From contig JAFMKX010000003.1 of assembly GCA_017852615.1 (NCBI GenBank), positions 1 through 49,942 of the forward strand: 49,942 nucleotides of DNA. Reading direction: 5' to 3'. Below the pieces are notes generated by a model. That model was not told the origin of the DNA, did no database searches, and worked only from the letters and a program-made list of their open reading frames with translations. Positions 15,293-46,637 of the stretch are shown here, piece by piece. Each line of letters opens with the position of its first letter. Within the stretch, counting starts at the first letter, position 1. A program made the translations under genes and the position numbers. The stretch comes from Pontimonas sp. Lineage in GTDB: Bacteria; Actinomycetota; Actinomycetes; Actinomycetales; Microbacteriaceae.

Positions 15293-17705
15293 CCAGAGAT
15301 ACCGTTCCCTGATCCCACACGACCCACTGGTCTGGTGGGATTGGCAGTGGTGGAAGCACGATACGTCCGGCAGTGGCGTAGCGAATTTCGCCGGGGCTGA
15401 GCTCTGTGATGATGACCCGATGGCGGGCCAGCACAGAGGCAATCTCGAGTCCTTTCATGGCCCAGGTCTCTGGTGTACCCACAAACTTGGTTTCGCTGCC
15501 TTCCCACACTGACTCGTCCCGTGTGAGCACGAGAGGAGGTCCTGGTGCCGGTGTGCTCTCGGGGGGAGCCCAGCTCCGAGGCGCACTGGCGCCGGAGGCT
15601 ATCTGAATCTGACTATCACCCCAGCGAGCACGTCCAGGGGGAAGCACGCCGCCGCCATCCCACGCCACGGCCACATCCGGCTTTGCCAGGGACATCACCA
15701 CCAGGTGTTCGGCCAGACGCGAGAGTGCACGAGCGTGCCGTGTGGAGCCAGACGAGGTCATCACGAGCCGGCCGGGAAAGGTTTCCACACACTCCACCAA
15801 CAGCGCCGCTCCCTCGTGCCCTGAGGCGTTCAAGCAGGAATCGAAATCATCCAGCACCACCAAGGATTGGGCGTTGGCGCTGGTCAAGCACTGCCACACA
15901 CGAAACGGATCGCTGGGTGCGAGCAGGGCTGTGGAGAAACCACTGGCAATGGTGTGCGCAGCAGTGGTTTTCCCGCAGCGCGGATCTCCCAGAATCAGGA
16001 CTGATCCGTGCTGCAGTTGATCAAAACCGAGACTCCGGTGACGCTGTCGTTCCGGGTCATCAGCCAGGGCCCAGCATGCTGAATCTGCAGCAAAACGCTC
16101 GGGTAGCGCTTCGGCCCATACTCTCCAGGGTGAGCTGGGGATGGCTGAATAATCTCGAGGGGTTACCGCGTCCACTCGGTATTCTCGAACCGGCCGCGTT
16201 GCCCCGGAGATAAAAATGCTGCCCGGCTCCAAATGGCGAGACCGTTTTTGTTGCTCGGGAGAAAGCTCGGGCATCCAGGAGGCACATTCAGACGCGTCAC
16301 TCACCCGAGCACATATTCGCAGCGAAATATTGGCCATCATGGCGGGAGTGAGTACACCGGTAATTCGCTGCGTTGACATGATGACGTGGATTCCCAGCGA
16401 CCGACCCCGTGCCAAGACATCGGAAAGCGCCTGCCCGAAACTAGGAAATGTGGTGAGCAACCATGCTGCCTCATCAATCACAATCACCAAACGGGGACAC
16501 TCGCACTCTGGTGGCAGTTGGGCGCACTCCGTTACCCCGTGCGCGGCAAGAAGCTGCTCGCGCTTGAGCATTTCAGCGTGGATGCCCGCCAGTGCTCGAT
16601 CCACCCGCGATTGATCTAAGTCGGTGACTACCCCCACCGTGTGGGGAAGCCCTGCGAGAGTGGCTAACCCGGCGCCTCCTTTGAAATCAATCAACACCAC
16701 CACCAGGTCACGCGGGGAATAATGAGCAGCCATGGAGTGAATCAGCGCGCTCACCGTCACACTCTTTCCGCTCCCTGTTGCACCCCACACCACAGCGTGT
16801 GGACCTTCCACCACAAGATTTATGGGTGGCTCCTCAGACCGTGTTGCCCACCATAAGCAATCCCGTGCGGTGTAATCCACTTCCAGACCACGCTGCCGCT
16901 CTGGTGCTCGAGAGCCGATTCGATCGAGCATCCACCGCGCCTGGGCAAGGCTCACCCCTTCTGTGACAATTTCTTCGCGTAAGCCCTGCGAAGTGATGAC
17001 GGTGGCCCGGGTGTCACCTCGTGCCACCACCACTGTGGAAATGTCCGCTGCCACTTCAGTGATGTCACTGACCCAGAGCGCGAGAGATTTCCCCACAATC
17101 CGAGTCGGGAAGGGGCCATGTACGGGAAAGTCCGCACTGCCCACGCGGGGCTCTAGAACACCCGAGTTCGCAAGACACCAGCTCACCACGATGGCTCGCC
17201 ACACATCAGCTTCCTTCTCGCTTCCGACAAACGCCAAGGATGCTCCTGCCTCGACCCCAAAAGGCATGCCAGCAATTCCCCCGGTTCCCGCAAGGGGATG
17301 AGAACTAGGAGGTGTCCACCAGTGAGTTCCCACTCGAATCATGGATTGGCGAGGAGGCAACCCCAGCCCCAGCGGGTCAGCAAAGACGTGATCAAGACGG
17401 GGCATAACGTCTAGAGCCTGAGTCTTCGTTTCCTCTCGCATCAAATCAAGGCGCTCCCGGTATTCGCTCACAGACTGGTCATATTCCGCCTCAACAAGAT
17501 CTGCGGAGGATCGGTGGCGCTTAACTCCCTCCCACCAGGACCCCATCACCATGAGAGGCCCCAACACCCCCATCGCCAGGGCAAGTGGCGAGCGAAAAAC
17601 TAACGCCATTACTACCGAGAGAATCACAGGGAGCACGGCGGGCAACCAGGGAACACTCGGGGGCTCTGCCGGTATGGGGCGAGCAGGGGGTGGACCGATG
17701 TTCAC
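15267..17705 (-). CDS. FtsK/SpoIIIE-EccC-like secretion-type ATPase (two ATPase modules, N-terminal TM)
   Basis: Walker A GATGSGKSVT, LIDFKGGAGL, LPHTVGVVTDLD, Walker B VIVIDEA; second Walker A GDPRCGKTT with VVLDDFD; N-terminal hydrophobic pair. Confidence 0.85.
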   Translation of the reverse strand: MNIGPPPARPIPAEPPSVPWLPAVLPVILSVVMALVFRSPLALAMGVLGPLMVMGSWWEGVKRHRSSADLVEAEYDQSVSEYRERLDLMREETKTQALDVMPRLDHVFADPLGLGLPPRQSMIRVGTHWWTPPSSHPLAGTGGIAGMPFGVEAGASLAFVGSEKEADVWRAIVVSWCLANSGVLEPRVGSADFPVHGPFPTRIVGKSLALWVSDITEVAADISTVVVARGDTRATVITSQGLREEIVTEGVSLAQARWMLDRIGSRAPERQRGLEVDYTARDCLWWATRSEEPPINLVVEGPHAVVWGATGSGKSVTVSALIHSMAAHYSPRDLVVVLIDFKGGAGLATLAGLPHTVGVVTDLDQSRVDRALAGIHAEMLKREQLLAAHGVTECAQLPPECECPRLVIVIDEAAWLLTTFPSFGQALSDVLARGRSLGIHVIMSTQRITGVLTPAMMANISLRICARVSDASECASWMPELSPEQQKRSRHLEPGSIFISGATRPVREYRVDAVTPRDYSAIPSSPWRVWAEALPERFAADSACWALADDPERQRHRSLGFDQLQHGSVLILGDPRCGKTTAAHTIASGFSTALLAPSDPFRVWQCLTSANAQSLVVLDDFDSCLNASGHEGAALLVECVETFPGRLVMTSSGSTRHARALSRLAEHLVVMSLAKPDVAVAWDGGGVLPPGRARWGDSQIQIASGASAPRSWAPPESTPAPGPPLVLTRDESVWEGSETKFVGTPETWAMKGLEIASVLARHRVIITELSPGEIRYATAGRIVLPPLPIPPDQWVVWDQGTVSLVSAERFLP

Positions 17706-21256: not shown

Positions 21257-23612
<2,356 letters not shown>

Positions 23613-23640
23613 TGCGTCTAGTCCTTATCCCTTGGTCGTC

Positions 23641-25278
23641 TTAGCGCTTGCGCTTGACGATCTTTTCCTGGTTGATGTCTTCTTGCTCCAAAGCGTCAAA
23701 CTCTTCGCTTCCCGGGTGGCCCAGACCTTCGGCGCCACTGGCTTGGAAGGCCACGAGGAACTTGTCCACCTCAGCCTCAAGTTGGGCCTTGGTGTCATCG
23801 TCCAGAACGTTCGTCTTGCGCAAGGTGTCAAGAATCTTGGTGTTGCGACGAAGGTGCTCGAGCAATTCAGCCTCAAACTTCAAGACATCAGCAACCTCGA
23901 CGGTGTCCAGTTTTCCGTTGGTGCCGGCCCAAATCGAGACCGTCTGCTCCTCCACGGGGTAGGGAGAATACTGAGGCTGCTTGAGCAGCTCGGTGAGTCT
24001 CGCCCCACGAGCCAACTGACGACGGCTTGTCGCGTCAAGGTCAGAAGCAAACATGGCGAAGGCTTCCAGGGATCGGTACTGAGCCAGCTCCAGCTTCAGA
24101 GTTCCCGATACCGACTTAATCGATTTCACCTGAGCGTCTCCACCCACACGCGACACCGAAATACCCACGTCCACAGCGGGACGCTGGTTTGCCAAGAACA
24201 GATCGGACTGCAGGAAGATCTGACCATCGGTGATCGAAATAACGTTGGTGGGAATGAAGGCAGAGACGTCGTTGGCCTTGGTCTCCACAATGGGCAGACC
24301 GGTCATCGAACCGCCGCCAAGGTCATCAGAGAGCTTGGCGCAACGCTCCAGCAAACGGGAGTGTAAGTAGAAGACGTCACCGGGGTAGGCTTCACGACCC
24401 GGTGGGCGGCGAAGAAGCAGGGACACAGCGCGATAGGCCTCAGCTTGCTTGGAGAGGTCATCAAAGATGATCAAGACATGCTTGGAGTCATACATCCAGT
24501 GCTGACCAATGGCAGAGCCCGTGTAGGGAGCAAGGTACTTGAATCCAGCGGGGTCAGAAGCGGGTGCAGCCACAATCGTGGTGTATTCCATGGCACCTGC
24601 TTTTTCCAAAGCGCCCTTCACACCGGCAATGGTGGAACCCTTTTGACCGATAGCAACATAAATACAGCGAACCTGCTTGTTCTCATCGCCAGAATCCCAG
24701 TTGGCCTTCTGGTTGATGATGGCGTCCACAGCAATGGCGGTTTTACCAGTCTGGCGGTCACCAATGATGAGCTGACGCTGTCCTCGTCCCACAGGAATCA
24801 TGGCGTCAATAGCCTTGATACCCGTCTGAAGTGGCTCGTGCACACTGCGACGATCCATCACGCCGGGAGCCTGGAGTTCCAAGGCGCGGCGGCCAGAAGT
24901 CTTGATCTCACCTAAGCCATCAATGGGGTTTCCCAGGGGGTCGACAACACGACCGAGGTAGCCCTCACCGACGGGAACGGACAGAACTTCACCGGTGCGG
25001 GTAACTTCCTGGCCTGCAGCAATTCCGCTGAATTCACCGAGAACCACCACACCGATTTCATTCTCATCAAGGTTCTGCGCGAGGCCTAGGGTGCCATCGG
25101 CGAACTTCACCAACTCGTTGGCCATCACGCCAGGCAGGCCCTCGACGTGGGCGATTCCATCGGCGGCGTCCACAACGTGACCAATTTCGGCGGTGCTAGC
25201 ACTGCCGGGGTCATAAGACTTGGCGAAGTCTTTCAGGGCATCGCGGATTTCATCCGGGTTGATGGTGATGTCTGCCAT
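23641..25278 (-). CDS. atpA: ATP synthase alpha subunit
   Basis: [44 protein letters not shown]. Confidence 0.97.
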
Positions 25279-27903: not shown

Positions 27904-28569
27904 TTAGGCAAACCGCTCTGCGGGCACCGCATGGAAGATATCTGTGAGCGGAATAAGGCCCTCGCGAACGACGCGAAGCTTCCCGCCGGGGTGACCCACA
28001 CCAGTTGCATCGATCACGGTGGAGAATTCTTTTCCCGGTTTTTCTTCACCAGCAGCCAAGAAAACAGACACCGCATCACCTAAGCGTTTGGCAATAGCGG
28101 AGGGAGACACCAGGGGCTTCTCCCCTTGGATAAAGGCGCCGGATTGGACCAAGGGTCCCGTCTCGCTCAATAACTCCAGGGCGATACGGTTGCCAGGCAT
28201 TCGAAGTGCCACCGTCCCTTTCGTCTCACCAAGATCCCACGCTAGGGATTCACCCGCGGGCACAATGAGGGTTAACCCACCGGGCCAAAATTCCTGGGCG
28301 AGGGTTTTTACGTCCTCGTCAACATGTTCGGCAAGTGCGGCAAGAGTGGGTATTCCGGGCAAGAAAACAGACAGGGGGGCGTTAGCCGGCATCCCCCGCG
28401 CCGATCTCAGTTTTGCGACTGCGGCCGGTTTGAACGCGTCTGCCACCAGCGCATACTGCGTATCTGTGGGGATTGCTACGACGTCACCGCGTCCAATACT
28501 CATCCGAGCGGTGCGCATACCTTCTAACAGCTCAGCGCTATTAGAGGTTTTGAAGATTCGGGCACTCAC
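27904..28569 (-). CDS. Divergent YrdC/Sua5-like protein (catalytic residues degraded)
   Basis: IPTDTQYALVADAF, FWPGGLTLIVPA, GTVALRMPGN align with Sua5; Lys of KxR and the SxN of SSANxSG are missing. Confidence 0.82.
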   Translation of the reverse strand: MSARIFKTSNSAELLEGMRTARMSIGRGDVVAIPTDTQYALVADAFKPAAVAKLRSARGMPANAPLSVFLPGIPTLAALAEHVDEDVKTLAQEFWPGGLTLIVPAGESLAWDLGETKGTVALRMPGNRIALELLSETGPLVQSGAFIQGEKPLVSPSAIAKRLGDAVSVFLAAGEEKPGKEFSTVIDATGVGHPGGKLRVVREGLIPLTDIFHAVPAERFA

Positions 28570-29918
28570 CCAAACAAGCTTTCCACGGCTTCTCGGAAGT
28601 GCGCCGTGTGAGCATCCACATCCTGAGAGGAAGTGGCGGGGCTCATCAGGGCCATATTGTGAAATGGCGTCATCAGAATTCCTCTATTGAGCGCGTGCAA
28701 GTGCAAATACTGCTGCAGTTCGAAATCGTCTGCGTGGGCGGCTTCGCCTCCATCGTGAGGAGCGTGAGGCAGGAAACTATATTCCGCCCTGGTCCCCAAT
28801 TGAGTCACCTGCCATGGCACATTCCAGTCCTCCAGAGCCTGGGAAACGCCCTGGGTCCACCTCGTGGCTTGGTCAATCATCGCGGGGTAAGACTCTGGAG
28901 TGAGAACCTCACCGAGAGTTGCTCTAATCCCGACCAGGGATAACGCGTTGCCGGCCAAAGTCCCTCCGACACCCCCGACGTCAATATCTTCCAGGTGCAA
29001 GGAGGACCGAACCTTGTCTCCCAGTTCTTGGGTCATCCCATAGGCACCAGCGGGGATTCCTCCTGCAATGGTTTTGCCGACCACCACGGCATCGGGTCTG
29101 AGCCCATCGCGTTGGGTCATTCCTCCTGGCCCGGCACATAGCGTGTGGGTTTCGTCAATAATCAACACGGCGCCATGGCGGGTAGCGAGTTCTCGCAGCG
29201 CGTCGTGCCATCCAGGCTCTGGAAGCACGATGCCAATATTCGTCATCGCGGGTTCCACCAACACACAGGCAATCTCGCCGGTGGCAAAGGCGGCTTCCAG
29301 TGCTGGCACATCGTTGAAGGGCACGACCACAGTAGTTTCTGAGGGTGGTACCGGAGCGCCAATATTGCCCCGGCGTTCCACCACAGCGCCATTGTCATCG
29401 AGTGTGGCAAAGGTTTCGTCCACACTGCCGTGATAGCAATAATCCATCACCAAAACTTTTTTCTTACCGGTGACGGCCCGGGAATATCGGATCATCGCCC
29501 GGTTGGCATCGGTGGCTGTGAGCGTGAACTGCCACATCGGCACACCAAAGCGTTCGGCCAGCATGCCCGCGGCAATCTCCGCATCCTCGGTGGGCAACAT
29601 GGTGGTGATTCCCTTGGCCAATTGGGCACTCAGCGCGTCCACCGTGGGCTTGGGCGAATGCCCCACCATGGCGCCGGTATCACCGAGGCACAAGTCGACG
29701 TGGTCAATCCCATCTACGCAGGTGAAATGGGCGCCTTGAGCGTGATCGACATACACCGGCCACGGGCCTGGCCACTTCGCCATCCACAGCATCGGAACCC
29801 CGTCGGGCATTCTGTGCGTAGCTTTGTCGAAAAGCTCACGGGAACGAGGTCGTTCTTGCTCGAAGCGGGCGATCTCAGCGCGCATGAGAGAAGACAGACG
29901 TTCACGGTCAACAGACAT
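28566..29918 (-). CDS. Class III aminotransferase (glutamate-1-semialdehyde aminomutase-like fold, substrate unknown)
   Basis: VYVDHAQGAHFTCVDGIDHVDLCLGDTGAMVGH, YHGSVDET, IIDETHT, VVGKTIAGGIPAGAYG PLP-lysine motif. Confidence 0.8.
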   Translation of the reverse strand: MSVDRERLSSLMRAEIARFEQERPRSRELFDKATHRMPDGVPMLWMAKWPGPWPVYVDHAQGAHFTCVDGIDHVDLCLGDTGAMVGHSPKPTVDALSAQLAKGITTMLPTEDAEIAAGMLAERFGVPMWQFTLTATDANRAMIRYSRAVTGKKKVLVMDYCYHGSVDETFATLDDNGAVVERRGNIGAPVPPSETTVVVPFNDVPALEAAFATGEIACVLVEPAMTNIGIVLPEPGWHDALRELATRHGAVLIIDETHTLCAGPGGMTQRDGLRPDAVVVGKTIAGGIPAGAYGMTQELGDKVRSSLHLEDIDVGGVGGTLAGNALSLVGIRATLGEVLTPESYPAMIDQATRWTQGVSQALEDWNVPWQVTQLGTRAEYSFLPHAPHDGGEAAHADDFELQQYLHLHALNRGILMTPFHNMALMSPATSSQDVDAHTAHFREAVESLFG

Positions 29919-29947
29919 AGTTGTGCTCCCTCTGGAGAAAAAAGAAC

Positions 29948-30745
29948 CTAACCCGCTTGCGCAAGCCGCTGGCGCTTGATCGCGCCACCAACCTGAGCAA
30001 TAAGGACAAGGAGGATGGCGCAGAAGAAGACCCCGGAGGCAATCACATTTGCTTCGGCGGGAATTCCCCGAGCAGCAGCGGTGTAGACAAAACGGGGGAA
30101 CGTCATCGCGGGTCCGGCGTTGAAGTTGGTGATGATGAAGTCATCAAAACTCAGCGCGAAAGATAAGAGTGCGGCAGCAACGATTCCTGGAATCAAGAGG
30201 GGAAAGGTCACACGCCAGAACACTTGGTTGGGCGAAGCATAAAGATCTCGACCGGCCTCTTCGAGAGCCCCATCGAGCACCGCCACCCGCGCCCGGACGG
30301 TCACGACAACAAAACTGATGCAAAACATGGTGTGCGCGATGATGATGGTGACGAGTCCTTTTTGAACTCCCAGTTGTAAAAATTGTGCGGCGAGGCCTGC
30401 TCCCAAGACAACCTCTGGTGTGGCCATGGGCAAGAAGAGCAAGAGAGTAGTGGCTTCGCGGAAACGGAACCGATAGCGCACCAACGCGAGGGCAATCGCG
30501 GTACCCATGGCGGTCGCCAACACGGTCGATACCCCGGCTACGAGCAGTGAATTACCAAACGAGCTACACACATCTTGGGCGTTGCAGACATCGAGCCAGT
30601 TATCGAAGGTGAAGCCGCGCCAGACGATGTTGGTGCGTCGTGCGTCGTTGAACGAAAACACAATCGTGTAGACGATCGGAATCATCAAGAAGACCAACGC
30701 CATGCCGGAGTACACCCACAGCAGGTACTTACCAAAGCCCCTCAT
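29948..30745 (-). CDS. potC: ABC transporter permease, spermidine/putrescine PotC-like
   Basis: EEAGRDLYASPNQVFWRVTFPLLIPGIVAAALLSFALSFDDFIITNF: binding-protein-dependent permease EAA loop with the PotC-typical SFDDFIIT. Confidence 0.88.
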   Translation of the reverse strand: MRGFGKYLLWVYSGMALVFLMIPIVYTIVFSFNDARRTNIVWRGFTFDNWLDVCNAQDVCSSFGNSLLVAGVSTVLATAMGTAIALALVRYRFRFREATTLLLFLPMATPEVVLGAGLAAQFLQLGVQKGLVTIIIAHTMFCISFVVVTVRARVAVLDGALEEAGRDLYASPNQVFWRVTFPLLIPGIVAAALLSFALSFDDFIITNFNAGPAMTFPRFVYTAAARGIPAEANVIASGVFFCAILLVLIAQVGGAIKRQRLAQAG

Positions 30746-31671
30746 AACAGGTCATCCGTTCCGCTGCGGCGAACATAGATGGACACCAGAATCAAGATCG
30801 ACATCATCAAAATCAGAGACAGCGCCGCTGCGGCCGGGAAATTCTGCAAAACCAGGAAGTTGGCCTCGATGACATTTCCCATCATGGCGGTGTCGGTAGA
30901 TCCCAAAAAGTCTCTTGAAGCATTGATGTAATCACCGGTAGCGGGGATAAAGGTCAATAGCGTCCCCGAGATAACTCCTGGAATCGAGAGCGGAAAGGTG
31001 ACCTTGCGAAATACGGTCACAGGGTTCGCATAAAGGTCCCCACCCGCTTCGACATAACGCAGATCAAGTTTTTCCAGGGTCGTGTAAATCGGCAGAGCCA
31101 TAAAAGGCAGGAACATATACGTCAGACCAAACACCACAGAGAACGGCGTGCCGGTCAAATAGGCGTCGGCGGGAATCAGTTGCATGGTTTTGAGCGCCCC
31201 CACCACAAAGCCTTCATCCGAGAAGATTTGCTTCCATGCGAGGGTGCGCAGCAGGAAGGAGATGAAAAATGGTGCGATGAGGAGGACCAATGCGAGAGCT
31301 TGCCAGAGAGGATAGGCGCGCAGTTTTACACCGATCACATACGCCAGGGGGTAACCCAGGAGTAAGGCAAACACCGTGGCCAAGCTCGCATAGACAAACG
31401 ATCTACCGATGTGGGTGAAATAGGTGCTCACCACCTCTACGTAATTTTCGAACCTAAAAGCAGTTTGATACTCACCAATAAAGCCACCGGGAACGGATTC
31501 TTGAAAACTGGTGAGGACTAGAGAAAAAAGAGGGGTCACAAAAAACAAAATCAGGTAGAGAATTCCCGGCAACAGCAGCCACAGCGCTACAGGGCTTTTG
31601 CGCTGCACTTGGGGGGCAGCGGCAGCTACTGACCCGCCGGGGGCAGAACTTTGAAACGCTCCGAAGGCCAC
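30742..31671 (-). CDS. potB: ABC transporter permease, spermidine/putrescine PotB-like
   Basis: YVEAGGDLYANPVTVFRKVTFPLSIPGVISGTLLTFIPATGDYINASRDFLGS. Confidence 0.88.
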   Translation of the reverse strand: MAFGAFQSSAPGGSVAAAAPQVQRKSPVALWLLLPGILYLILFFVTPLFSLVLTSFQESVPGGFIGEYQTAFRFENYVEVVSTYFTHIGRSFVYASLATVFALLLGYPLAYVIGVKLRAYPLWQALALVLLIAPFFISFLLRTLAWKQIFSDEGFVVGALKTMQLIPADAYLTGTPFSVVFGLTYMFLPFMALPIYTTLEKLDLRYVEAGGDLYANPVTVFRKVTFPLSIPGVISGTLLTFIPATGDYINASRDFLGSTDTAMMGNVIEANFLVLQNFPAAAALSLILMMSILILVSIYVRRSGTDDLL

Positions 31672-32882
31672 TAGGCCTCCTCGAATTCAGCTTCTAACTT
31701 CTCCCGCTCCTGCACTGCAACCGACACCGTGTCCGTGTCCGAGACGTACTTTCCCTCGGGTGCAGGCGCGTCAGCGAGACCAAAAGCGTGGTCGACTTGC
31801 CAAGACACGAATACCTCATCGCCCTCACTGGCGTGTTCGCCAAGTGACGTATTTTGAGCAAAGACAATAATCTGGCCCATCCCCGGCACCTCAACGAGGT
31901 ACTGGGTGCTGACACCAGAGAAAGAAGCATCCGTGACTCGCCCAGGGCCCAGGACCGTCACCGAAGAACTCTGAGCCGGTTTTTCTCGGTGCAAGACAAC
32001 TTTTTCGGGTCGAATACCCACCGTGACGTCACCCCTGTGGGAGACGGCTCGATCGGTGGGAACACGAAGTTCTTGGCCAGCAACGCTGACCGTGATGACC
32101 TGATTGGTAGACCCACTCACTTCACCGGTGAAGAGATTGGATTGGCCCAAGAATGTGGCAACAAAGGAAGTTTGGGGGGATTCGTAGAGCTCCTCGGGAG
32201 CACCCATCTGTTCAATACGTCCTTGATTCATCACCGCGACGGTGTCCGCCATCGTCATGGCTTCTTCCTGGTCATGAGTCACGTGCAAGAAGGTCAGACC
32301 GACTTCTTGTTGGATTTCTTTGAGCTCTAATTGCATTTGGCGGCGAAGCTTGAGGTCTAGAGCGCCGAGGGGTTCATCCAAGAGAAGCAGAGCAGGACGG
32401 TTCACCACGGCACGCGCCAACGCCACACGCTGTTGCTGTCCACCGGAGAGTTGGGCGGGCTTGCGATTGGCCACATGCCCCAGTTCCACGAGTGCCAAAG
32501 CATCTTTTGCTAATTGGTCGGCATCCGCGATTTTGCGACGTTTGAGTCCAAACATCACGTTATCGAGCACACTCATGTGGGGGAAGAGCGCATAGGACTG
32601 GAAGACCGTATTTACTGGCCTCTGGTAAGCCTTCGTGTCAGTGACATCCTTACCACCGACCAGGATTCGACCTTCCGTGGGCTCTTCCAGCCCTGCTACG
32701 AGCCTCAGTGTTGTGGTCTTGCCACACCCACTGGGCCCGAGCAGGGCGAAGAAGGAACCTGCTGGAATATCCAGCGAAAGGTCATCAATAGCGGTGAAGC
32801 CAGGAAACCGTTTGGTGACATTCACCAGGGACAGATCTGCACCTGCTTCAGCAAATTGTCGCGCCGAAGTTTCCTTATTCAC
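31671..32882 (-). CDS. potA: ABC transporter ATPase, spermidine/putrescine PotA-like
   Basis: [44 protein letters not shown]-like C-terminus; GTG start at 32882 preferred. Confidence 0.92.
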
Positions 32883-32901
32883 CGTGTCGTGACGCTTACT
32901 A

Positions 32902-34116
32902 CTAGGCGCCCAAGGCGATGGCCTGGAAGGCCGCCTGGAACTCGTTGTCCTCGTCGGAGCTGAGAGTTCTAAAGGCCTTCGCCTGAGCCAAAGTGGCGGC
33001 ATCAGGGAAGATCAATTTGTTCTCAGCCAGATCAGGATCGATATCCATGGCAGCTTCGTAGGCGCCCTTGACTGGCGTCACGTAGTTCACCCAGGCAGCA
33101 ACTTCCGCAGCAACCTCAGGCTCGTAGTAGTAGTTCATCAGCGCTTCAGCGTTGGCTTTGCGAGGAGAACCGATCGGCACAACCATGGTGTCGTTCCAAA
33201 TGGTGGCACCAGACTCGGGGAAGACGAACTTCCACTTCTCGCCATCGTCATAACCATTTTCGTAGTTAATCAAGGTGATATCCCCAGACCAACCAATGGC
33301 GACCAAGGCGTCCTCGTTGACCAGGTCTTCGGTGTAGGAGTTACCACGCACGTTACGAATCTGGCCAGCTTCCACCTGTTCACGCAGAACGTCGAGAGCC
33401 TTGTTGAATTCGTTTGCTCCCCAATCGCTGGAAATGTCGACGCCATTGGCCATCATCAAGATACCGACGGTGTCGCGCATTTCGGAGAGAACGACGACGC
33501 GACCCTTGAGCTCAGGAGCCCACAGATCCTCTACCGTGCGAATTTCTCCCACTTTGTCGACGTTGTAGGCCAGACCCGCGAATCCACCCTGCCAAGGCAG
33601 GCTCTTCTTGCGGCCTGGATCCCAGTCTGGGTTGGCTAGTGAGTCAACAACGTTGACCTTGTTAGGAACATTTGCTTCGTTGAGTTCCTGGACGAAACCC
33701 ATCTGGCCCCAACGAGCAGCCATCCATTCGGTGGGAACAACGATGTCAGCGCCAATGTCTTGACCCAACTGGAGCTGGTCGCGCACCTTGGCGTAGTAGG
33801 TGTTGTTGTCGTCGTAGTCGACCATGTAGTTGACCGCGATACCCGTCTGCTCCTGGAAACGATCCAGCGTGGGGTAGTTGCCGTCATCGTCTTCATCGAT
33901 GTAAAACGGCCAGTTAGACCAGTTCAAGGTCTTGTCGGTGGCGGAAATATCTTCTGCTGCCACGAGTTCTGAGTCCGAAGCACAGGCGGCGAGACCGAGA
34001 GCTACGGCGCTTCCACCAGCCCCAGCAAGAAAAGATCGCCTGGAGAGCTGCGACTTCTTAGCCATCTTGATCAGGCTGCGGACCATGGGGTCTTCAGGTA
34101 ATGGACGATTCGACAT
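32902..34116 (-). CDS. potD: Polyamine ABC transporter substrate-binding lipoprotein (PotD/PotF-like, Tat-type signal)
   Basis: SRRSFLAGAGGSAVALGLAAC signal with lipobox; LNWSNWPFYIDEDDDGNYPTLDRFQEQTGI typical of PotD/F. Confidence 0.9.
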   Translation of the reverse strand: MSNRPLPEDPMVRSLIKMAKKSQLSRRSFLAGAGGSAVALGLAACASDSELVAAEDISATDKTLNWSNWPFYIDEDDDGNYPTLDRFQEQTGIAVNYMVDYDDNNTYYAKVRDQLQLGQDIGADIVVPTEWMAARWGQMGFVQELNEANVPNKVNVVDSLANPDWDPGRKKSLPWQGGFAGLAYNVDKVGEIRTVEDLWAPELKGRVVVLSEMRDTVGILMMANGVDISSDWGANEFNKALDVLREQVEAGQIRNVRGNSYTEDLVNEDALVAIGWSGDITLINYENGYDDGEKWKFVFPESGATIWNDTMVVPIGSPRKANAEALMNYYYEPEVAAEVAAWVNYVTPVKGAYEAAMDIDPDLAENKLIFPDAATLAQAKAFRTLSSDEDNEFQAAFQAIALGA

Positions 34117-34232
34117 TGAAACTCCTCATTATGTATACGTAGTGCCAAGGCACCAGGTGATTAATTGATGATAGACCGATTGTCACGACGAGGTGTCACT
34201 TTTACGTCACGGTCTGGTTGCGTTACTTCCTC

Positions 34233-35669
34233 CTACTCTCCGATGTAGGACATCACGTGCTTTATGCGCGTGTAGTCCTCGAACCCATATTGGGACAAAT
34301 CTTTGCCATAGCCGGAGTGCTTAAAGCCTCCGTGAGGCATCTCTGCCACGAGGGGAATATGGCAGTTAATCCACACAGCCCCGAAGTCAAGACCCTTGGC
34401 GAATCGCATCGCCCGACCATGATCTTTCGTCCACACACTCGAGGACAAGCCATACAGCACGTCGTTGGCCATGCCAAGAGCTTCCTGCTCTTGCGTGAAG
34501 GTCTGGACCGTGATGACGGGACCAAAGATTTCGTTCTGAATGGCATCATCGCGCTGCTTCAAGCCCGTCACAATGGTGGGCTCCACGAAGTACCCTGTGC
34601 TGCCCTGCCTGGAACCACCGGTCTCGACCACAGCGTGATCGGGCAGTGCTCCCAAAACCCCCATGACTCGATCCATCTGGTTGTGGTTGTTCAGCGGGCC
34701 ATAGAAAATGTTGGGGTCGGAGGGCATTCCGGTGGTGACGTTACCCGCTACCCATTTCTTGAGCTCCGCGACGAAGTCATCGTGAATCGATTCGTGGACG
34801 AGCACACGCGTGGCCGCGGTGCAGTCCTGGCCAGCGTTGAAGAATCCGGCAGTAGCAATGCCTTCGACTGCGGAGGAAATATCCGCATCGGCAAAGACCA
34901 CCACAGGTGCTTTGCCACCGAGTTCTAAGTGAACTCTCTTGAGATCACTGGATGCTGCCTTGGCGACCTCCATACCGGCGCGAACCGAGCCGGTAATCGA
35001 AACCATTTGAGGGGTGCGGTGGTCGATCATGGCAGCCCCGGTGGTGCGGTCTCCCGTGATGACATTGACCACCCCAGGGGGCAGATGTTGCGCACAAATT
35101 TCGGCCAAGAGCAACGTGCTCTGGGGCGTGGTGTCGGAAGGCTTCAGCACAGTGGTGTTTCCCGCTGCGACCGCCGGAGCAAATTTCCATACCGCCATGT
35201 TCAGCGGATAGTTCCAGGGAGTTACTTGTCCAATGACACCAATCGGTTCGCGGCGAATCATCGAGGTGTGATCGGCCATGTATTCCCCGGCGCTGCGGCC
35301 CTCGAGGTTACGAGCAGCCCCCGCAAAGAAACGAATCTGATCTACGCTGAGCGAAATCTCGTCGTCGACCAAAGTCGCACGAGGTTTCCCTGCGTCTTGT
35401 GACTCCACATCCGCAAACTCTTCGGCCCTTTTTTCCATTTCATCGGCAATGCGAAACAGAGCCAGCTGGCGCTCCCCTGGTGTGGTGTTTCCCCAGGTCT
35501 CAAAAGCATCCGCCGCTGCCGCATAAGCAGCATCAACATCCGCGGCACTGGAGATGGGTGCCTGCGCATAGACAGCCTCGGTGGCGGGATCAATGAGGTC
35601 CATGGCGTCCTTGCCACTGGCCTCTACATAGTTACCGTTGACGAAATTCTTAAGCGTGGGAGTAGTCAT
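34233..35669 (-). CDS. Aldehyde dehydrogenase, likely gamma-aminobutyraldehyde dehydrogenase
   Basis: LELGGKAPVVVFADAD, FFNAGQDCTAATR catalytic Cys, PWNYPLNMAVWKFAPA; polyamine-gene context. Confidence 0.87.
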   Translation of the reverse strand: MTTPTLKNFVNGNYVEASGKDAMDLIDPATEAVYAQAPISSAADVDAAYAAAADAFETWGNTTPGERQLALFRIADEMEKRAEEFADVESQDAGKPRATLVDDEISLSVDQIRFFAGAARNLEGRSAGEYMADHTSMIRREPIGVIGQVTPWNYPLNMAVWKFAPAVAAGNTTVLKPSDTTPQSTLLLAEICAQHLPPGVVNVITGDRTTGAAMIDHRTPQMVSITGSVRAGMEVAKAASSDLKRVHLELGGKAPVVVFADADISSAVEGIATAGFFNAGQDCTAATRVLVHESIHDDFVAELKKWVAGNVTTGMPSDPNIFYGPLNNHNQMDRVMGVLGALPDHAVVETGGSRQGSTGYFVEPTIVTGLKQRDDAIQNEIFGPVITVQTFTQEQEALGMANDVLYGLSSSVWTKDHGRAMRFAKGLDFGAVWINCHIPLVAEMPHGGFKHSGYGKDLSQYGFEDYTRIKHVMSYIGE

Positions 35670-35749
35670 GGCGATACCCTAACCTAGTGGCATACCGTAG
35701 GTCCACCCGGGTATTGGGGAATCTTTTCGTTGCCATTTCTCTTATTTCA

Positions 35750-35781
35750 ACTAATTTCGTTTGCTTTTGGGGAAAATTAGT
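35750..35781. promoter_or_regulatory. Inverted repeat ACTAATTT-N16-AAATTAGT; candidate operator for the adjacent Lrp-type regulator
   Basis: Perfect 8-bp arms, centre-to-centre 24 bp, ending 14 nt before the Lrp start codon in a divergent intergenic region. Confidence 0.55.
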
Positions 35782-35795
35782 GCGAAAATCATCGG

Positions 35796-36269
35796 ATGGC
35801 AGACTCAAAGAAGGCCCGCCGCCACAGCTTGGATGATGTGTCCAAAAAAATTATCCGGCTCCTCCAGCGCGATGGTCGGATGTCCTATGCCGAAATCGGC
35901 AAAAGGGTGGGACTGAGCGAAGCCGCCGTGCGTCAACGAGTGGGAAAGCTCACTGATGCCGGAATTATGCAGATCGTGGCGGTCACGGATCCCAGCCAAC
36001 TGGGTTTCCATCGCCAGGCCATGATCGGCATCCGAGTGCAGGGAGACGCACGAGACATTGCCGCTGCTTTGAAAGAAATCGAACAGGTGGACTATCTCGT
36101 ATTGACCACCGGGCGCTTTGACATTCTCGCCGAGATTGTCTGTGCCGATGATGCCGAACTACGAGAAATCTTGCATGGCTCTATTCGAACCATACAGGGC
36201 GTCATAGACACGGAAACCTTTACCTACCTATCCATAGAAAAAGAACACTACGACTGGGGAACACGATGA
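35796..36269 (+). CDS. Lrp/AsnC family transcriptional regulator
   Basis: LDDVSKKIIRLLQRDGRMSYAEIGKRVGLSEAAVRQRVGKLTDAGI HTH; C-terminal RAM domain. Confidence 0.93.
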   Translation: MADSKKARRHSLDDVSKKIIRLLQRDGRMSYAEIGKRVGLSEAAVRQRVGKLTDAGIMQIVAVTDPSQLGFHRQAMIGIRVQGDARDIAAALKEIEQVDYLVLTTGRFDILAEIVCADDAELREILHGSIRTIQGVIDTETFTYLSIEKEHYDWGTR

Positions 36270-37717
36270 CCATTATTGAGAAACTACAGAAAACCCTCAC
36301 ACCCTCCAAGGCAACCAAGAAGGCCCCTCGCGCGAAAACCAAGCGCGCTGAAACCTTGCAGGACAAGGCTCGGGATCACTTGTGGATGCACTTCACTAGG
36401 CAGGGCCCCCTTTCTGATGGCGCCGATGTTCCGATCATCGTCAAGGGAAATGGCCACCACATCTGGGATGACCAGGGCAAGCGATACTTCGATGGTCTCT
36501 CTGGACTTTTTGTGGTCAACGCGGGCCATGGACGAAGCCGTCTCGCCGAAGTAGCGGCTCGCCAAGCTGAAGAGCTCGCGTTCTTCCCGCTGTGGTCCTA
36601 TGCCCACCCGGCAGCCATTGAGCTCGCTGACAAACTTGCCGATTACGCCCCCGGGGATCTCAACAAGGTGTTCTTCACCACCGGTGGTGGCGAAGCGGTA
36701 GAAAGCGCCTTCAAGCTGGCCAAACAGTACTGGAAGCTTCAGGGCAAGCCAATGAAACACAAAGTTATTTCCCGAAGCGTCGCCTACCACGGCACACCCC
36801 AGGGGGCCCTTGCCATCACGGGAATCCCCTCGATGAAGCAAATGTATGAACCCCTCACTCCTGGTGGGTTCCGGGTGCCCAACACCAACTACTACCGGGC
36901 CGAGGAAATGGGCTTCGTCGGCGAGACCGAGGAAGAGTTTGGTCTCTGGGCCGCCAATCGCATTGAAGAGATGATCGAGTTTGAAGGTGCAGACACCATT
37001 GCGGCTGTCTTCCTCGAACCTGTCCAGAATTCTGGTGGTTGCTTCCCTCCCCCTCCCGGCTACTTCCAGAGGGTTCGTGAAATCTGCGACAAGCACGACG
37101 TCTTGCTTGTGAGCGACGAAGTCATCTGCGCCTTTGGTCGGATTGGCGAAATGTTTGCCTGCACAGCTTTTGATTACATCCCCGACATCATCACCTGCGC
37201 CAAGGGAATGACGAGTGGATATTCCCCCATTGGCGCCATGATCGCCAGCGACAAACTCTTTGAACCCTTCAAGAATGGGGACACCACCTTCTACCACGGC
37301 TATACCTTTGGTGGTCATCCCGTATCGGCGGCAGTGGCTCTGGAGAACATCAAGATCTTCGAAGAAGAGGGAATCAACGAACACGTGCGCAAGAACTCTC
37401 CGAAATTCCGGGCCGCCCTCGAAAAGCTGCTGGATATTCCCATCGTCGGTGACGTGCGAGGTGCGGGGTACTTCTTTGGCATCGAGCTGGTCAAGAACAA
37501 GGAAACCAAGGAAACCTTTACCGAAGAAGAATCGGAAAAGCTCCTGCGTGGATTCCTCTCCAAGGCTCTCTTTGAAGCGGGACTCTACTGCCGCGCCGAT
37601 GACCGAGGTGACCCCGTCATCCAATTGGCACCGCCGTTGACGATTGGACCTGACGAGTTTGTCGAGATTGAAGCAATACTGCGTGATGTGTTGACGCGGG
37701 CTAGCAAACTTCTCTAA
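36266..37717 (+). CDS. Class III aminotransferase, putrescine/omega-amine:pyruvate type (SpuC-like)
   Basis: FTTGGGEAVESAFKLAKQYWKLQGKPMKHKVISRSVAYHGTPQGAL, DEVICAFGRIG, CAKGMTSGYSPIGA. Confidence 0.88.
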   Translation: MTIIEKLQKTLTPSKATKKAPRAKTKRAETLQDKARDHLWMHFTRQGPLSDGADVPIIVKGNGHHIWDDQGKRYFDGLSGLFVVNAGHGRSRLAEVAARQAEELAFFPLWSYAHPAAIELADKLADYAPGDLNKVFFTTGGGEAVESAFKLAKQYWKLQGKPMKHKVISRSVAYHGTPQGALAITGIPSMKQMYEPLTPGGFRVPNTNYYRAEEMGFVGETEEEFGLWAANRIEEMIEFEGADTIAAVFLEPVQNSGGCFPPPPGYFQRVREICDKHDVLLVSDEVICAFGRIGEMFACTAFDYIPDIITCAKGMTSGYSPIGAMIASDKLFEPFKNGDTTFYHGYTFGGHPVSAAVALENIKIFEEEGINEHVRKNSPKFRAALEKLLDIPIVGDVRGAGYFFGIELVKNKETKETFTEEESEKLLRGFLSKALFEAGLYCRADDRGDPVIQLAPPLTIGPDEFVEIEAILRDVLTRASKLL

Positions 37718-37721
37718 CTCC

Positions 37722-39092
37722 GTGGGATCGTCTTCGTCGCTCTCGCTATGGCAGGACACGCTGGGAGATGTCCCCGCGTCAAGGGCGCCATTGAGCCCCG
37801 CTGATCTTCGTGAACACTATGACGTTGTCATCATGGGAGCCGGATATACCGGCTTATGGACTGCTGTAGCGCTGACGAAGAAACATCCGGATTTGAAACT
37901 CCTCGTTCTTGACAAAGAGCGCGTGGGATTCGGTGCTTCCGGGCGAAATGGCGGGTGGGTCTCCTCACTATTTCCCACAAGCCCCTCAGGGTTGATCCAG
38001 CGCCACGGTCTCGACCAAGCCCGGGCGATGCGCGTGGCGATGGTTGAGGCGGTCGACTCCCTGGGCGCGTGGGCTAAGGATCTCGGAATCCAGTGTGATT
38101 TTGTCCAGGGAGGAACCACCACTCTGGCCAGAAATCAGATTCAACTCCACCGAGCCCAAGAAGACCTCGCCGAGGCACAAGTCTTGGGCGTGGACAAGCT
38201 CTCCTGGAGAGCACCCGAAGAGACCCTGGCAGCCTCTGAGGTGGTGGGGGCGGTGTTCAACCCCGCGTGCGCTCGCATTCATCCCGGCAAACTGGTGCAG
38301 GGCCTCGCAAAAGTTCTCGATGATGCTGGCGTACGAATAGCCGAGGCCACTGCGGTCATCAGCTATTCACCTGGTCGAGTGGTCACCCAGAGGGGCGAGG
38401 TTACCTGTGATGTGGCCATTGATGCGATGGAGGGATACCGATCCCAACTTCGCCAGAATCGCCGCGACACGTTGCCCTTGTATTCACTCATGATTGCCAC
38501 AAATCCGTTGCCTGATTCCGTATGTGATGACATCGGATTGCACCACGGGGAGACATTTGCTGATTACCGCTCTCTGGTGATTTATGGCCAACGCACGGCG
38601 GATAATCGAATTGCCTTTGGCGGGCGCGGGGCGCCGTATCACCTGGGCAGTCGCATCAAAAACTCTTACGACCTGGTTCCGCGGGTTTTTCGCGCGTTGG
38701 AACACACGCTCAAGGATCTTTTCCCCCAGCTTGCCGATGCCACAATTTCCCACCGGTGGGGCGGGGTATTAGGAGTTCCCCGGGATTGGCACGCCAGTGT
38801 CACCTTTGATAGCGCAACAGGACTCGCTCGAGCAGGAGGATACGTGGGTGATGGTGTTGGCCTATCTCACCTAGCAGGACTCACCCTTGCCGATTTAATC
38901 ACGGACACACCCTCGGCTCGCACAACCTTGCCCATGGTCAACCACGTGTCCCCTCGATGGGAGCCCGAACCCTTGCGCTATCTCGGCGCCACGGCAGCCA
39001 TTACCGGGGTTCGACTCGCGGATTATGTGGAGTCACGAACGGGAAAGCCCTCGATAATTTCACGCCTGATCGCTCCCCTGACAGGGCACTAA
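37722..39092 (+). CDS. FAD-dependent amine oxidoreductase (PuuB/DAO family)
   Basis: DVVIMGAGYTGLWTAVALTKKHP, GFGASGRNGGW motifs. Confidence 0.87.
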   Translation: MGSSSSLSLWQDTLGDVPASRAPLSPADLREHYDVVIMGAGYTGLWTAVALTKKHPDLKLLVLDKERVGFGASGRNGGWVSSLFPTSPSGLIQRHGLDQARAMRVAMVEAVDSLGAWAKDLGIQCDFVQGGTTTLARNQIQLHRAQEDLAEAQVLGVDKLSWRAPEETLAASEVVGAVFNPACARIHPGKLVQGLAKVLDDAGVRIAEATAVISYSPGRVVTQRGEVTCDVAIDAMEGYRSQLRQNRRDTLPLYSLMIATNPLPDSVCDDIGLHHGETFADYRSLVIYGQRTADNRIAFGGRGAPYHLGSRIKNSYDLVPRVFRALEHTLKDLFPQLADATISHRWGGVLGVPRDWHASVTFDSATGLARAGGYVGDGVGLSHLAGLTLADLITDTPSARTTLPMVNHVSPRWEPEPLRYLGATAAITGVRLADYVESRTGKPSIISRLIAPLTGH

Positions 39093-42026: not shown

Positions 42027-42890
42027 CTAAGGCAAAAATCCTTGGGTGAAGCGGTCTCGGCCCACGAGGTCTTGCTCGGTCGATATCGCCCGGAAACCAG
42101 CCTCGTGGAGCAACGCTTTCACTGATTCCCCCTGAAGGTTTGAGTGCTCGATCATGATGACCCCACCGGGTCGCAGAATGGATGGGGCAAAACCCAAGAT
42201 TTCTCGCACCACGTCTAAACCGTCTTCTCCTCCAAAAAGTGCCAGTGGAGGATCAAAATCTGCGACTTCAGGGTCATTGGGGACCAGGTCTTTGGGCACA
42301 TACGGTGGATTCGCCACCACCAGGTCAAAAGAATCGTCCAGGCTTTGCGCTCCGAAACTTCCTAAATCCTCCTTGACTAGGGTGTTCTCCGGAGCCAGGG
42401 CCTGGCTATTGATTTCGAGATAGCCAAACGCTTCAGGAGATACCTCCACAGCAGTGACCTGAGCATGGGGTACTTCTCGCGCAATCGCGATACCCAGAAC
42501 CCCCGAACCCGCACACAAATCCAGAACACGAAGACCGTGCTCTCCCACCGCCAGTGTTTGCGCCTGGTCGATAGCGCGCAAGGCCATGGACTCAGTTTCA
42601 GGTCGGGGAACAAATACCCCCGGTCCCACACTCACCTCAAAGCTCAGAAAAGGTGCGTTGCCTGTGAGGTGCTGGAGTGGCTCACGTTTCTCTCGTCTGA
42701 CAACCAGAGCTTCCAAAGCCTCCAGATGGTGAGCATCAAGCTCGCCACCACGATGCGCACGGGCCAGCACTTCACCTCGAGGAATGCCCAACACGTGCGA
42801 GGCTAAACGCTCGGCATCAACACTGGGTGAGGGAACACCGGCGGTGTTCAGGCGTTGAGAGATGTCACGTAAGACATCGAGCAATTCCAT
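42027..42890 (-). CDS. prmC: Peptide chain release factor N5-glutamine methyltransferase
   Basis: RPETE, VLDLCAGSGVLGIA, VVANPPYVP. Confidence 0.94.
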   Translation of the reverse strand: MELLDVLRDISQRLNTAGVPSPSVDAERLASHVLGIPRGEVLARAHRGGELDAHHLEALEALVVRREKREPLQHLTGNAPFLSFEVSVGPGVFVPRPETESMALRAIDQAQTLAVGEHGLRVLDLCAGSGVLGIAIAREVPHAQVTAVEVSPEAFGYLEINSQALAPENTLVKEDLGSFGAQSLDDSFDLVVANPPYVPKDLVPNDPEVADFDPPLALFGGEDGLDVVREILGFAPSILRPGGVIMIEHSNLQGESVKALLHEAGFRAISTEQDLVGRDRFTQGFLP

Positions 42891-43966
42891 TAGGACTCGC
42901 CAAGTGCTTGTAAGCGCTCCGCTTCATCAGCTTCAATGCAGGATCGGATGACGGGCTCTAGGGCTCCGTTCATGACCTGGTCAAGGTTGTAGGACTTATA
43001 TCCGGTGCGGTGATCCGCAATCCGGTTTTCGGGAAAGTTATACGTTCTGATCCGCTCGGAGCGATCCATCCCGCGGATTTGGCTTTTTCGCGCGTCAGAT
43101 TGCGCAGCGGCGATTTCTTCTTGCTGCTTGGCCAGAATCCGCGCACGAAGAACTCTCATTCCGGCCTCGCGGTTTTGAATCTGGCTTTTCTCGTTTTGCA
43201 TCGACACGACAATGCCGGTGGGAAGGTGGGTGATGCGCACCGCGGAGTCCGTGGTGTTCACCGATTGGCCCCCGGGACCGCTGGATCGAAAAACATCGAT
43301 CTTGAGGTCGTTGGGGCTGATGTCTACTTCCTCGGGCTCATCCACTTCAGGAAACACCAAAACCCCGGTGGTCGAGGTGTGGATGCGTCCCTGGGATTCC
43401 GTCACCGGAACGCGCTGGACCCGGTGGACGCCACCCTCATATTTCAAACTCGCCCAGACTCCTTCTGCAGGATCCGTGGCAGAAGACTTGATCGCGACTT
43501 GGACGTTTTTAAAGCCGCCCATGTCACTTTCGGTTTTATCCAAAACCTCCGTCTTCCACCCCCGCGATTCCGCGTAATGGAGATACATGCGCAGGAGATC
43601 GGCGGCAAACAAGGCGCTTTCTTCGCCGCCCTCGCCCCCTTTGATGTCCATGATGACATCCCGACCATCGTCAGGGTCACGAGGAATCAGCAGTGATCGC
43701 AAGCTTTCGGTTGCCTCGACAAGAGCCTGCTCTAATCCTGGAACCTCTGCTGCCATCGATTCGTCTTCGCTGGCGAACTCTTTGGCCGCTGCTACGTCTT
43801 CGGTGAGACCCACCATCCGCTCGTGAGCGGCAATGATTTTGGAGAGCTCCGCAAATCGACGATTGAGTTTTTTAGAGAGACCTGCATCAGCGTGGACCGC
43901 GGGGTCGCCAAGCCTGACTTGAAGCTCGGCGTGCTCCGCGATCAACGCATCAACAGAATCAAACAT
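42890..43966 (-). CDS. prfA: Peptide chain release factor 1
   Basis: [20 protein letters not shown] motif, [19 protein letters not shown]. Confidence 0.97.
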
Positions 43967-43974
43967 GATCAGTC

Positions 43975-45528
43975 TTAGTTGCTAGTACTGGCTTGTTTGC
44001 CCATAGCAACGAGGAACTCCACGTTAGACGAGGACTTCTTCATGGCCTCCAGTGCCACGTTGAGAGCCGCAGAGGTGTCCAAGGAGCCCATCGACTTCCG
44101 GATTCCAGCAATAGCGGCCGCTTCGTCCGAAGCCAACAGCAAATCATCCCGCTTAGTGCGAGTTGCCGCAATATCCACAGCAGGGAACATTCTCGAGCTG
44201 GCGCATCCGGCATCCAAGTGGAGCTCCCAGGTGGCGGTGCTCGAGATTTCGCTCGCGACAACGTCATCCACAGCCAAACCGGTTCCCGTTACCAGGGTTC
44301 CCAGAATAGTCAGCGATCCGCCGCCATCAACATTGCGAGCCGCACCGAAGAGCTTCTTGGTGGGGTGCACCCACGCGGTGTCACTGCCACCGCGACTCGT
44401 GCCACCAATGCTCTGCTGGTATGCCCGGGCCAGTCTGGTCAAGGAATCAAAGAGCACGACAACGTCGTGGCCAAGCTCCACCAAACGCTTGGCGCGCTCG
44501 ATAGCGAGCTCTGCGATGGTGGTGTGATCATCCGAGGACCGATCGAAGGTCGAGGCAATAACTTCGCCTTTGGCTTCCCGCGCGATTTCGGTAATGGCTT
44601 CAGGCTGCTCATCTACCAAGACCATCATGATGTGAGCATCAGGAGCATTCACCGCCACAGCGTGAGCCAGGGAATTCAGCAGCGTCGACTTACCGCTTCC
44701 CGCGGCACCAATGACGACACCTCGTTGTCCCTTACCCACCGGAGCAAAGACATCCACCATGCGACCCGACGTCTCATCGGAGGTGGTCTCCATCAGGTAA
44801 CGCTGCGTGGGATACACCGCGCTCAGCGCAGAAAACTCGACTCTGCTGGCAGCTTCGTCCACGGTTTGGCCATTGACACTGTCAATGCTGACCAGAGCGT
44901 TGTACTTCTGTCGCCCTTGGTGTTCTCCTTCACGCGGCTGACGAATCGCACCGATCACGGCGTCACCCTTGCGGAGGTTATATTTCTTGACCTGGCCTAG
45001 AGAGACATACACATCGGTAGGTCCTGGCAAGTAACCCTGAGTGCGAACAAACGCATAGTTATCCAGGACGTCCAAGATTCCTCCAATAGGAATCAAGACA
45101 TCGTCATCGGAAATTTCGGGTTCGCCATCTTCGCTGTATCCACCGCGTCCACGCCGGCGATCACGGCCGCGTCCACGACCTCGGTTGCGGTTATAGCCGC
45201 CACCTTCGCCATTGTCCTCAGAGTTATCATCTCCGTTATCGGATTCTGGGGAAGCGTCGTTCGCTTCTGACTTGGGCTCAGACTTATCGTCTTTAGTCGA
45301 GCCAGATGCTCGCCTGCGGCGAGGTCGCTCGGGCGCGCCTTCGGCAGGAGCATCGCTGCTCTTCGCGTCGGGTGCCGCGGCGGGGGTGCTTTCTTGGTTG
45401 GTAGCTTCTGAAGAGTCAGTGGCCTTGGTGGCCAGAGTCTCAGAATTTACTCTGCGTGGAGCTCGTTTGCGGGGAGCTGATTTTTCAGCTTCTGGCGCAC
45501 CATTCGAGTCCGTGTTATCTAAATCCAT
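43975..45528 (-). CDS. rho: Transcription termination factor Rho, highly divergent
   Basis: [47 protein letters not shown] (Rho RNA-BD), [37 protein letters not shown] aaggag before ATG at 45528. Confidence 0.9.
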
Positions 45529-45692: not shown

Positions 45693-46637
45693 TCAGTCGG
45701 CGAGCGTGGGAACTTCCTCCACTGTAGCACCTCGTTCGTCGACGGTGAGCATATGGCTAGCCCACGACCCACCGCCATGGCTCTCCACAATGCTGGCTAC
45801 TTCCGCGCGCTGAGAGGGATCCGAGCACAAAATCAACACCGAGGGACCAGCCCCCGAGACCACAGCAGCAAAACCCTGTTTGCGCAATTTTTGGAGCAAA
45901 TCATCGGTGTCTTGCATCGCACTCGCCCGATAGGTCTGGTGCAATTTATCTTCGGTCGCCTCAAAAAGTAGCTCAGGGCTTTGAATCAAGGCAGCAATGA
46001 GCAGAGCCGATCGAGACAGGTTGAAGATCGCGTCCTGGTGTGGCACGGTATCGGGCTGCAGACTTCTTGCCAATTGGGTGGACATGCTGGCCTCCTGGGG
46101 AACGGCCACAACTAACGAAACTCCGCGGTGGACGCTGAGCTTCTTATGTTTGGGGCCCTGATCTGTCATCCAGGCAATAGTGAGTCCCCCGAACAGTGAG
46201 GGCGCAATGTTATCCGGGTGCCCTTCCATCTCCGTGGCGATCGCGAGCAGCTCTGAGGCGTCGAAGCTTTCGAAACCCTCCAACAAACCTTTTGCCGCCA
46301 TCACACCCGCAACAATTGCTGCACCCGAGGAACCCAGTCCTCGACCGTGAGGGATGGTGTTGTGGGCAACAAGGTGCAGACCTGGTGCCGTTACTCCTTT
46401 GGCGGCAAACGCATGAAGAAGTGACTTGGCAATCAGGTTTGTTTCATCAGTGGGAACTTCACCTTCGCCAACGCCGTGCACCTCAACCGTGATGCCAGTG
46501 CCCTCCACCACGGTGGCACTGAGACGATCCCCCATGGTCAAGGCCATACCTAAGGTGTCAAAGCCTGGACCTAGATTGGCTGTCGTCGCCGGAACAGAAA
46601 CCTCGACGGAGCGCCCGAGTGGGATGGCGTGAGTCAT
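45693..46637 (-). CDS. thrB: Homoserine kinase
   Basis: [40 protein letters not shown] motif, GAGPSVL. Confidence 0.95.

Follow-up and report, generated by a model that had tools for sequence, protein, structure and literature searches.

The rho locus of Pontimonas

The window analysed here, a stretch of 49,942 nucleotides from a Pontimonas genome, contains on its reverse strand an open Rho-family gene (43975-45528), identified among the open reading frames of the window and by profile search. Its product has 517 amino acids. The ATG start at 45528 is directly preceded by the ribosome site AAGGAG, and an alternative TTG start farther upstream would give a product of 528 amino acids. The gene order around it, hom-thrC-thrB-rho-prfA-prmC, is that of the standard actinobacterial rho locus. 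The homoserine kinase gene thrB (45693-46637, reverse strand) precedes rho; prfA, coding for release factor 1 (42890-43966, reverse strand), comes after it, supports orthology and was also used in the species tree. At the junction (43966-43975) prfA follows rho directly, with no rpmE between them; in mycobacteria rpmE occupies this place.

The same gene with the same neighbours was found in the closed chromosome of P. salivibrio (G005, 1,760,810 bp) and in other Pontimonas genomes. A canonical Rho elsewhere in the genome, which the earlier note had raised, was looked for with the TIGR00767 profile. No second Rho was found in the genome of the window (90.8% complete, in 99 contigs), where the remaining matches are weak ones to F1-ATPase subunits, or in the closed chromosome of P. 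salivibrio, and no second canonical Rho was found in the other genomes with an eroded Rho. The window gene is the orthologous and sole rho of a Pontimonas species. In one Pontimonas MAG (G001; locus L034, 3498-5040), rho is broken near position 129 of the profile into two frames that overlap, through either a frameshift or an assembly error.

Elsewhere in the window, genes for class-III aminotransferases, an aldehyde dehydrogenase, an FAD-dependent oxidoreductase and ABC transport (28566-39092) form what looks like a cluster for uptake and breakdown of polyamines or amines. An FtsK/SpoIIIE-family ATPase of 812 amino acids is encoded at 15267-17705, and a protein with an MPAB/latex-clearing-type oxygenase domain at 9217-10152.

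Domains and predicted structure

Both halves of Rho are recognizable in the product. The RNA-binding (OB) domain with the primary RNA site (44893-45069, reverse strand), assigned from PF07497 and from the comparison of residues, scores 88 bits against a cut-off of 27 (E=2.9e-25), and the RecA-type ATPase domain PF00006 scores 71 bits. A basic patch of 13 residues, conserved in the alignment, adjoins the RNA-binding domain (45139-45177, reverse strand); this patch and a further stretch of 47 residues read exactly as quoted earlier. With the Rho profile TIGR00767 the protein reaches 417 bits against a cut-off of 509, most Microbacteriaceae scoring about 600-650. It passes NF006886 (381.5, cut-off 315), and its score for NF041509, the short-form Rho2, is 382, under the cut-off of 628.

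AlphaFold2 predicts a confident core, with most blocks at about 90 or more, and disorder over the N-terminal ~135 residues. The best match of the predicted fold among solved structures is Mycobacterium tuberculosis Rho (PDB 7oqh; TM 0.94 by target, 46% identity). Since the latter also has a disordered basic N-terminal extension (PMC8828861), this feature is not distinctive. The earlier note had pointed to the missing Rho-N domain, which is indeed absent from the protein; Rho_N is also missing in canonical Rhos of the small-genome genera g11 and g14, as well as in those of Aurantimicrobium and Klugiella, and as a clue it was therefore dropped.

Residues lost and kept

We aligned the window protein with E. 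coli Rho, 15 further Pontimonas Rhos and 23 canonical actinobacterial Rhos; numbering is that of E. coli. Of 156 positions invariant across E. coli and the 23 canonical proteins, 54 are changed in the window protein, which, together with the TIGR00767 score, bears out its description as a highly divergent Rho. All 54 lie in the linker and ATPase domains, and all 15 invariant positions of the RNA-binding domain are kept. The equivalents of primary-site residues F62 (Tyr), F64, R66, D78, Y80, E108 and Y110 are retained in 16/16 Pontimonas Rhos.

Within the ATPase domain, none of the 16 Pontimonas Rhos has R212, K326, K336, G339, N340, R347 or Q-loop position 285, and K184 (Walker A), E211 (the catalytic Glu), D265 (Walker B), R269 and R353 are present in all 16. 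The P-loop GAAGSGKS (44686-44709, reverse strand), earlier regarded as altered, is present as quoted but is a textbook Walker A motif, with the catalytic Lys (K184) and Ser/Thr kept; K181 is lost here, as in 7/16 Pontimonas Rhos, the P-loop being variable inside the genus. The change from DERPE to DEQPE (44599-44613, reverse strand) was read correctly: it retains E211 and replaces the arginine valve R212 by Gln, position 212 being Gln in ten, Asn in four and His in two of the 16 proteins.

The 28-residue segment with Walker B and the Q-loop (44371-44454, reverse strand) retains D265 and R269 and has lost P279. Its Q-loop is not only altered, as had been noticed, but also three residues shorter than the canonical one (two to three in the aligned Pontimonas Rhos). 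The R-loop of E. coli Rho comprises residues 322-326, DTGSK (PMC1950744). Its counterpart in the window protein is GTGLA, within GTGLAV (E. coli 322-327; 44269-44286, reverse strand), and K326 is replaced by Ala; the 16 Pontimonas Rhos have Ala (9), Ser (4), Gln (2) or Glu (1) here. The earlier note had taken FKGTGN for the R-loop. This element is indeed lost, but it represents residues 335-340, a neighbouring element of the channel: EFKGTGNM is replaced by EISSTATW (44227-44250, reverse strand), with the changes K336S, G339A and N340T. Finally, the segment RMFPAV...TRTKRDD (44143-44193, reverse strand) retains R353 and has Lys with an adjacent Arg at the arginine finger R366, a position occupied by Arg in 11/16, Ser in 3/16 and Ala in 1/16 Pontimonas Rhos.

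Recurrence in Microbacteriaceae and other Actinomycetota

Among 400 Microbacteriaceae genomes, each at least 90% complete, a Rho-type gene was detected in 398, the two misses being highly fragmented assemblies. In 362 of the 400 it scored above the curated TIGR00767 cut-off of 509; altered loops are therefore not the norm of the family. Two low scorers (G082 of g63 and G099 of g80) were excluded as contig-edge pieces of canonical Rho. After exclusion of these and of the two genomes without a match, a motor-eroded Rho remained in 34/400 genomes, belonging to Pontimonas, g6, g15, g16, g19, g48, g70 and g84. Rhos at an earlier stage, which lack K336, the R-loop Lys or both, were seen in g42, g90, g17 and g85, which score above the cut-off, and in g13, which scores below it and comes from a separate sample of 60 genomes. 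In the rest of the order, 1/227 genomes fell below the cut-off (Fisher p=2e-6, with related genomes not independent of each other).

All full-length eroded Rhos retain, with small variation, the RNA-binding motif DNYAFVRT...GxxDVYV, and several eroded Microbacteriaceae lineages have lost the ATP site outright. Six genomes of other actinobacterial families display the same erosion to varying degree: at loci L276-L279, L275 and L273 (G678, G692, G730, G746, G630 and G496, respectively), the RNA-binding motif persists, but erosion has reached Walker A, the Q-loop or arginine residues. In one genome (G130, locus L178) an eroded rho is interrupted in frame by a TAG within the region matched by the profile and may be undergoing truncation. 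Family f35 gave no Rho match at E<=1e-25 in any of the four genomes sampled (G657, G712, G721 and G755), an apparent complete loss of Rho.

In a species tree built from prfA, thrB, thrC, hom and prmC, eroded lineages are scattered over the family, being placed as Pontimonas with g84, g6 with g15 and g70, g42 with g90, g16, g48, g19, g17 with g85, and g13; the tree is of a quick kind with some long branches, and support for joining Pontimonas to g84 is no more than 88%. The distribution of canonical and eroded forms on it takes six changes, four of which are forced by well-supported branches. Motor erosion has arisen independently in at least four lineages, and probably in about eight.

Comparison among extant lineages, as distinct from ancestral reconstruction, suggests that losses begin with K326, K336 and the Q-loop (g42/g90, g85, g17, g13) and proceed to either the arginine valve or the catalytic Glu (Pontimonas, g13), that Walker A is the next to disappear (most g15; g6, g84), and that the C-terminus with R353 and R366 is lost last (g84, g19). 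Genome reduction was rejected as the cause, as the small genomes of g11, g14 and g78 (1.4-1.6 Mb) have canonical Rho and the ~3-Mb genomes of g15 have eroded Rho.

Selection on the two domains

Substitution rates were estimated by the NG86 method on a limited set of pairs, with synonymous sites near saturation in some. The median ratio of dN in the ATPase domain to dN of prfA was 0.32 for canonical pairs, 1.09 for Pontimonas (p=0.001) and 3.3 for the deeper cases (p=0.0003). Relative to the RNA-binding domain, the corresponding medians for the ATPase domain were 0.67, 2.3 and 4.3 (p=0.0003). The motor is usually the conserved half of Rho (PMC8828861); as the ATPase domain of eroded Rhos evolves faster than the RNA-binding domain, this rule is reversed in them. 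Their ATPase-domain dN/dS mostly amounts to 0.03-0.13, so that the gene is under selection and the protein in use. In Pontimonas the values (0.03-0.06) are as low as for prfA.

Discussion

The window protein is Rho by descent and, judged by its residues, lacks three tested features that define the motor: the arginine valve R212, the R-loop Lys/KGTGN and a full-length Q-loop. R212 polarises and positions the attacking catalytic water (PMC8828861). In E. coli Rho, K326A costs about 75% of the ATPase activity (PMC4499133), and N340S, G324D and P279S/L are termination-defective, P279S not being rescued (PMC1950744). In M. tuberculosis Rho, loss of the catalytic Glu abolishes ATPase (PMC4499133). 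Because many of these mutant-sensitive places are changed together in the window protein, we think that it binds RNA, and probably ATP, but does not pull RNA any more.

On balance we lean towards Pontimonas Rho being an RNA- and nucleotide-binding factor uncoupled from RNA translocation. Its primary site most likely still binds RNA, and it probably binds ATP and perhaps hydrolyses it. Coupling of ATP turnover to RNA pulling would have been lost with the arginine valve, the R-loop, the 336-340 residues and the full-length Q-loop; we infer this loss of pulling from the sequence read against published mutants. The protein would probably act on nascent RNA and RNA polymerase as an RNA-bound factor that does not translocate, be it a clamp, a tether or an allosteric switch, a tether or allosteric role being possible because the N-terminal domain of Rho also carries polymerase contacts (PMC8828861); the function that replaces RNA pulling is a guess. 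The earlier note had suggested modified translocation or neofunctionalisation. That direction was right, and the evidence goes further, in that the RNA-coupling parts have disappeared together and the RNA-binding part has stayed, in one lineage after another. Insensitivity to bicyclomycin, also suggested there, is plausible given the loss of R212 throughout and of K181 in some of the Pontimonas proteins. Other lineages would have taken the same path farther, to outright loss of the ATP site. Whether Actinomycetota have repeatedly converted Rho from a motor into an RNA-binding factor that does not translocate, with Pontimonas as a stable intermediate that kept the ATP site and lost the RNA-channel coupling, seems to us evenly balanced.

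It is rather unlikely, but deserves serious consideration, that Pontimonas Rho still translocates RNA and terminates transcription, new residues having replaced the loop and valve contacts. The fully kept core of the ATP site, with K184, E211, D265, R269 and R353 invariant and R366 or a neighbouring Arg present, and purifying selection on the ATPase domain equal to that on prfA are what one expects of a working enzyme and speak against uncoupling. Moreover, M. tuberculosis Rho has Thr in place of K326 and is nevertheless a working motor (PMC4499133). NusG and NusA, whose loss was looked for, are both intact. Compensating intrinsic terminators were not found either: they were rarer in Pontimonas and g84 than in relatives whose Rho is canonical (7/117 versus 25/151, a comparison weakened by rough gene calls and differing GC), and such a lack of expansion would fit a Rho that still terminates. 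Against a rewired motor, K326 and K336 are never replaced by Lys or Arg (Ala, Ser, Gln, Thr or Glu stand there instead), the Q-loop is shortened, and R212 has become Gln, Asn or His. Furthermore, the ATP site was later lost in the sister lineage and in others that share these loop losses, which is hard to explain if there were still a need for translocation.

Slow decay, in which Rho is dispensable and drifting to loss, its RNA-binding domain being merely the last to remain, we regard as improbable. It would account for an ATPase domain whose rate of evolution, scaled to prfA, exceeds that of canonical lineages about 3-10 times, for the in-frame stop in G130 and for the absence of Rho from f35. 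However, virtually every eroded gene has an open reading frame, dN/dS stays far under 1, and Microbacteriaceae offer no clean loss, the two genomes without a match being fragmented assemblies. Persistence of the RNA-binding domain is not a default outcome, because canonical lineages generally conserve this domain less than the ATPase domain. That the gene reflects a misassembly or codes for a Rho2-like protein gained by horizontal transfer, the real Rho having been overlooked in an incomplete assembly of many contigs, is extremely improbable in view of its Rho2 score far under the cut-off and the lack of a second Rho in any relative within the genus, and is ruled out by the closed P. salivibrio genome, where this gene has the same neighbours.

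Whether RNA pulling or allosteric inactivation of the polymerase is the main way in which Rho acts is debated. Lineages with the RNA-anchoring domain under strong selection and the motor eroded are natural mutants that bear on this question. Recurrent, separate loss of the motor with retention of the RNA-binding part suggests that Rho can be useful without being a motor, and should uncoupled Rhos retain an action on RNA polymerase, nature would be supplying evidence that some of Rho's role needs no translocation. One organism with an eroded Rho, Pontimonas salivibrio, is a cultured type strain. Rho-dependent termination cannot be taken as given wherever a genome table has the entry 'rho present'. 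Key catalytic and RNA-channel residues of Rho are mostly kept bacteria-wide, in over 1200 species (PMC4499133). In the literature searched, whose coverage did not include the main 2013 survey (Microbiology 2013), we found no earlier report of recurrent loss of the Rho motor.

Comparison with known systems

F1-ATPase alpha and beta subunits, encoded in the window at 21257-25278, belong to the same RecA-type ATPase family as Rho; unlike Rho they have no Rho RNA-binding domain and represent the ATP synthase genes of the genome. The short-form Rho2 paralogue (NF041509) has homologous ATPase and RNA-binding domains. It is, however, a second copy beside canonical Rho, such as is seen in some large actinobacterial genomes, whereas the window protein is encoded by a single copy at the rho locus. 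With E. coli Rho the window protein shares domain order, the primary RNA site, the Walker A Lys, the catalytic Glu and the Walker B Asp, and it differs at or lacks R212, K181, K326, K336, N340, R347, P279, R366 and three Q-loop residues. M. tuberculosis Rho resembles it in fold, in the disordered basic N-terminal extension and in replacement of the R-loop Lys. In contrast to the window protein, it has kept the arginine valve, the catalytic residues, the Q-loop and KGTGN, and it is a bona fide motor (PMC4499133, PMC8828861).
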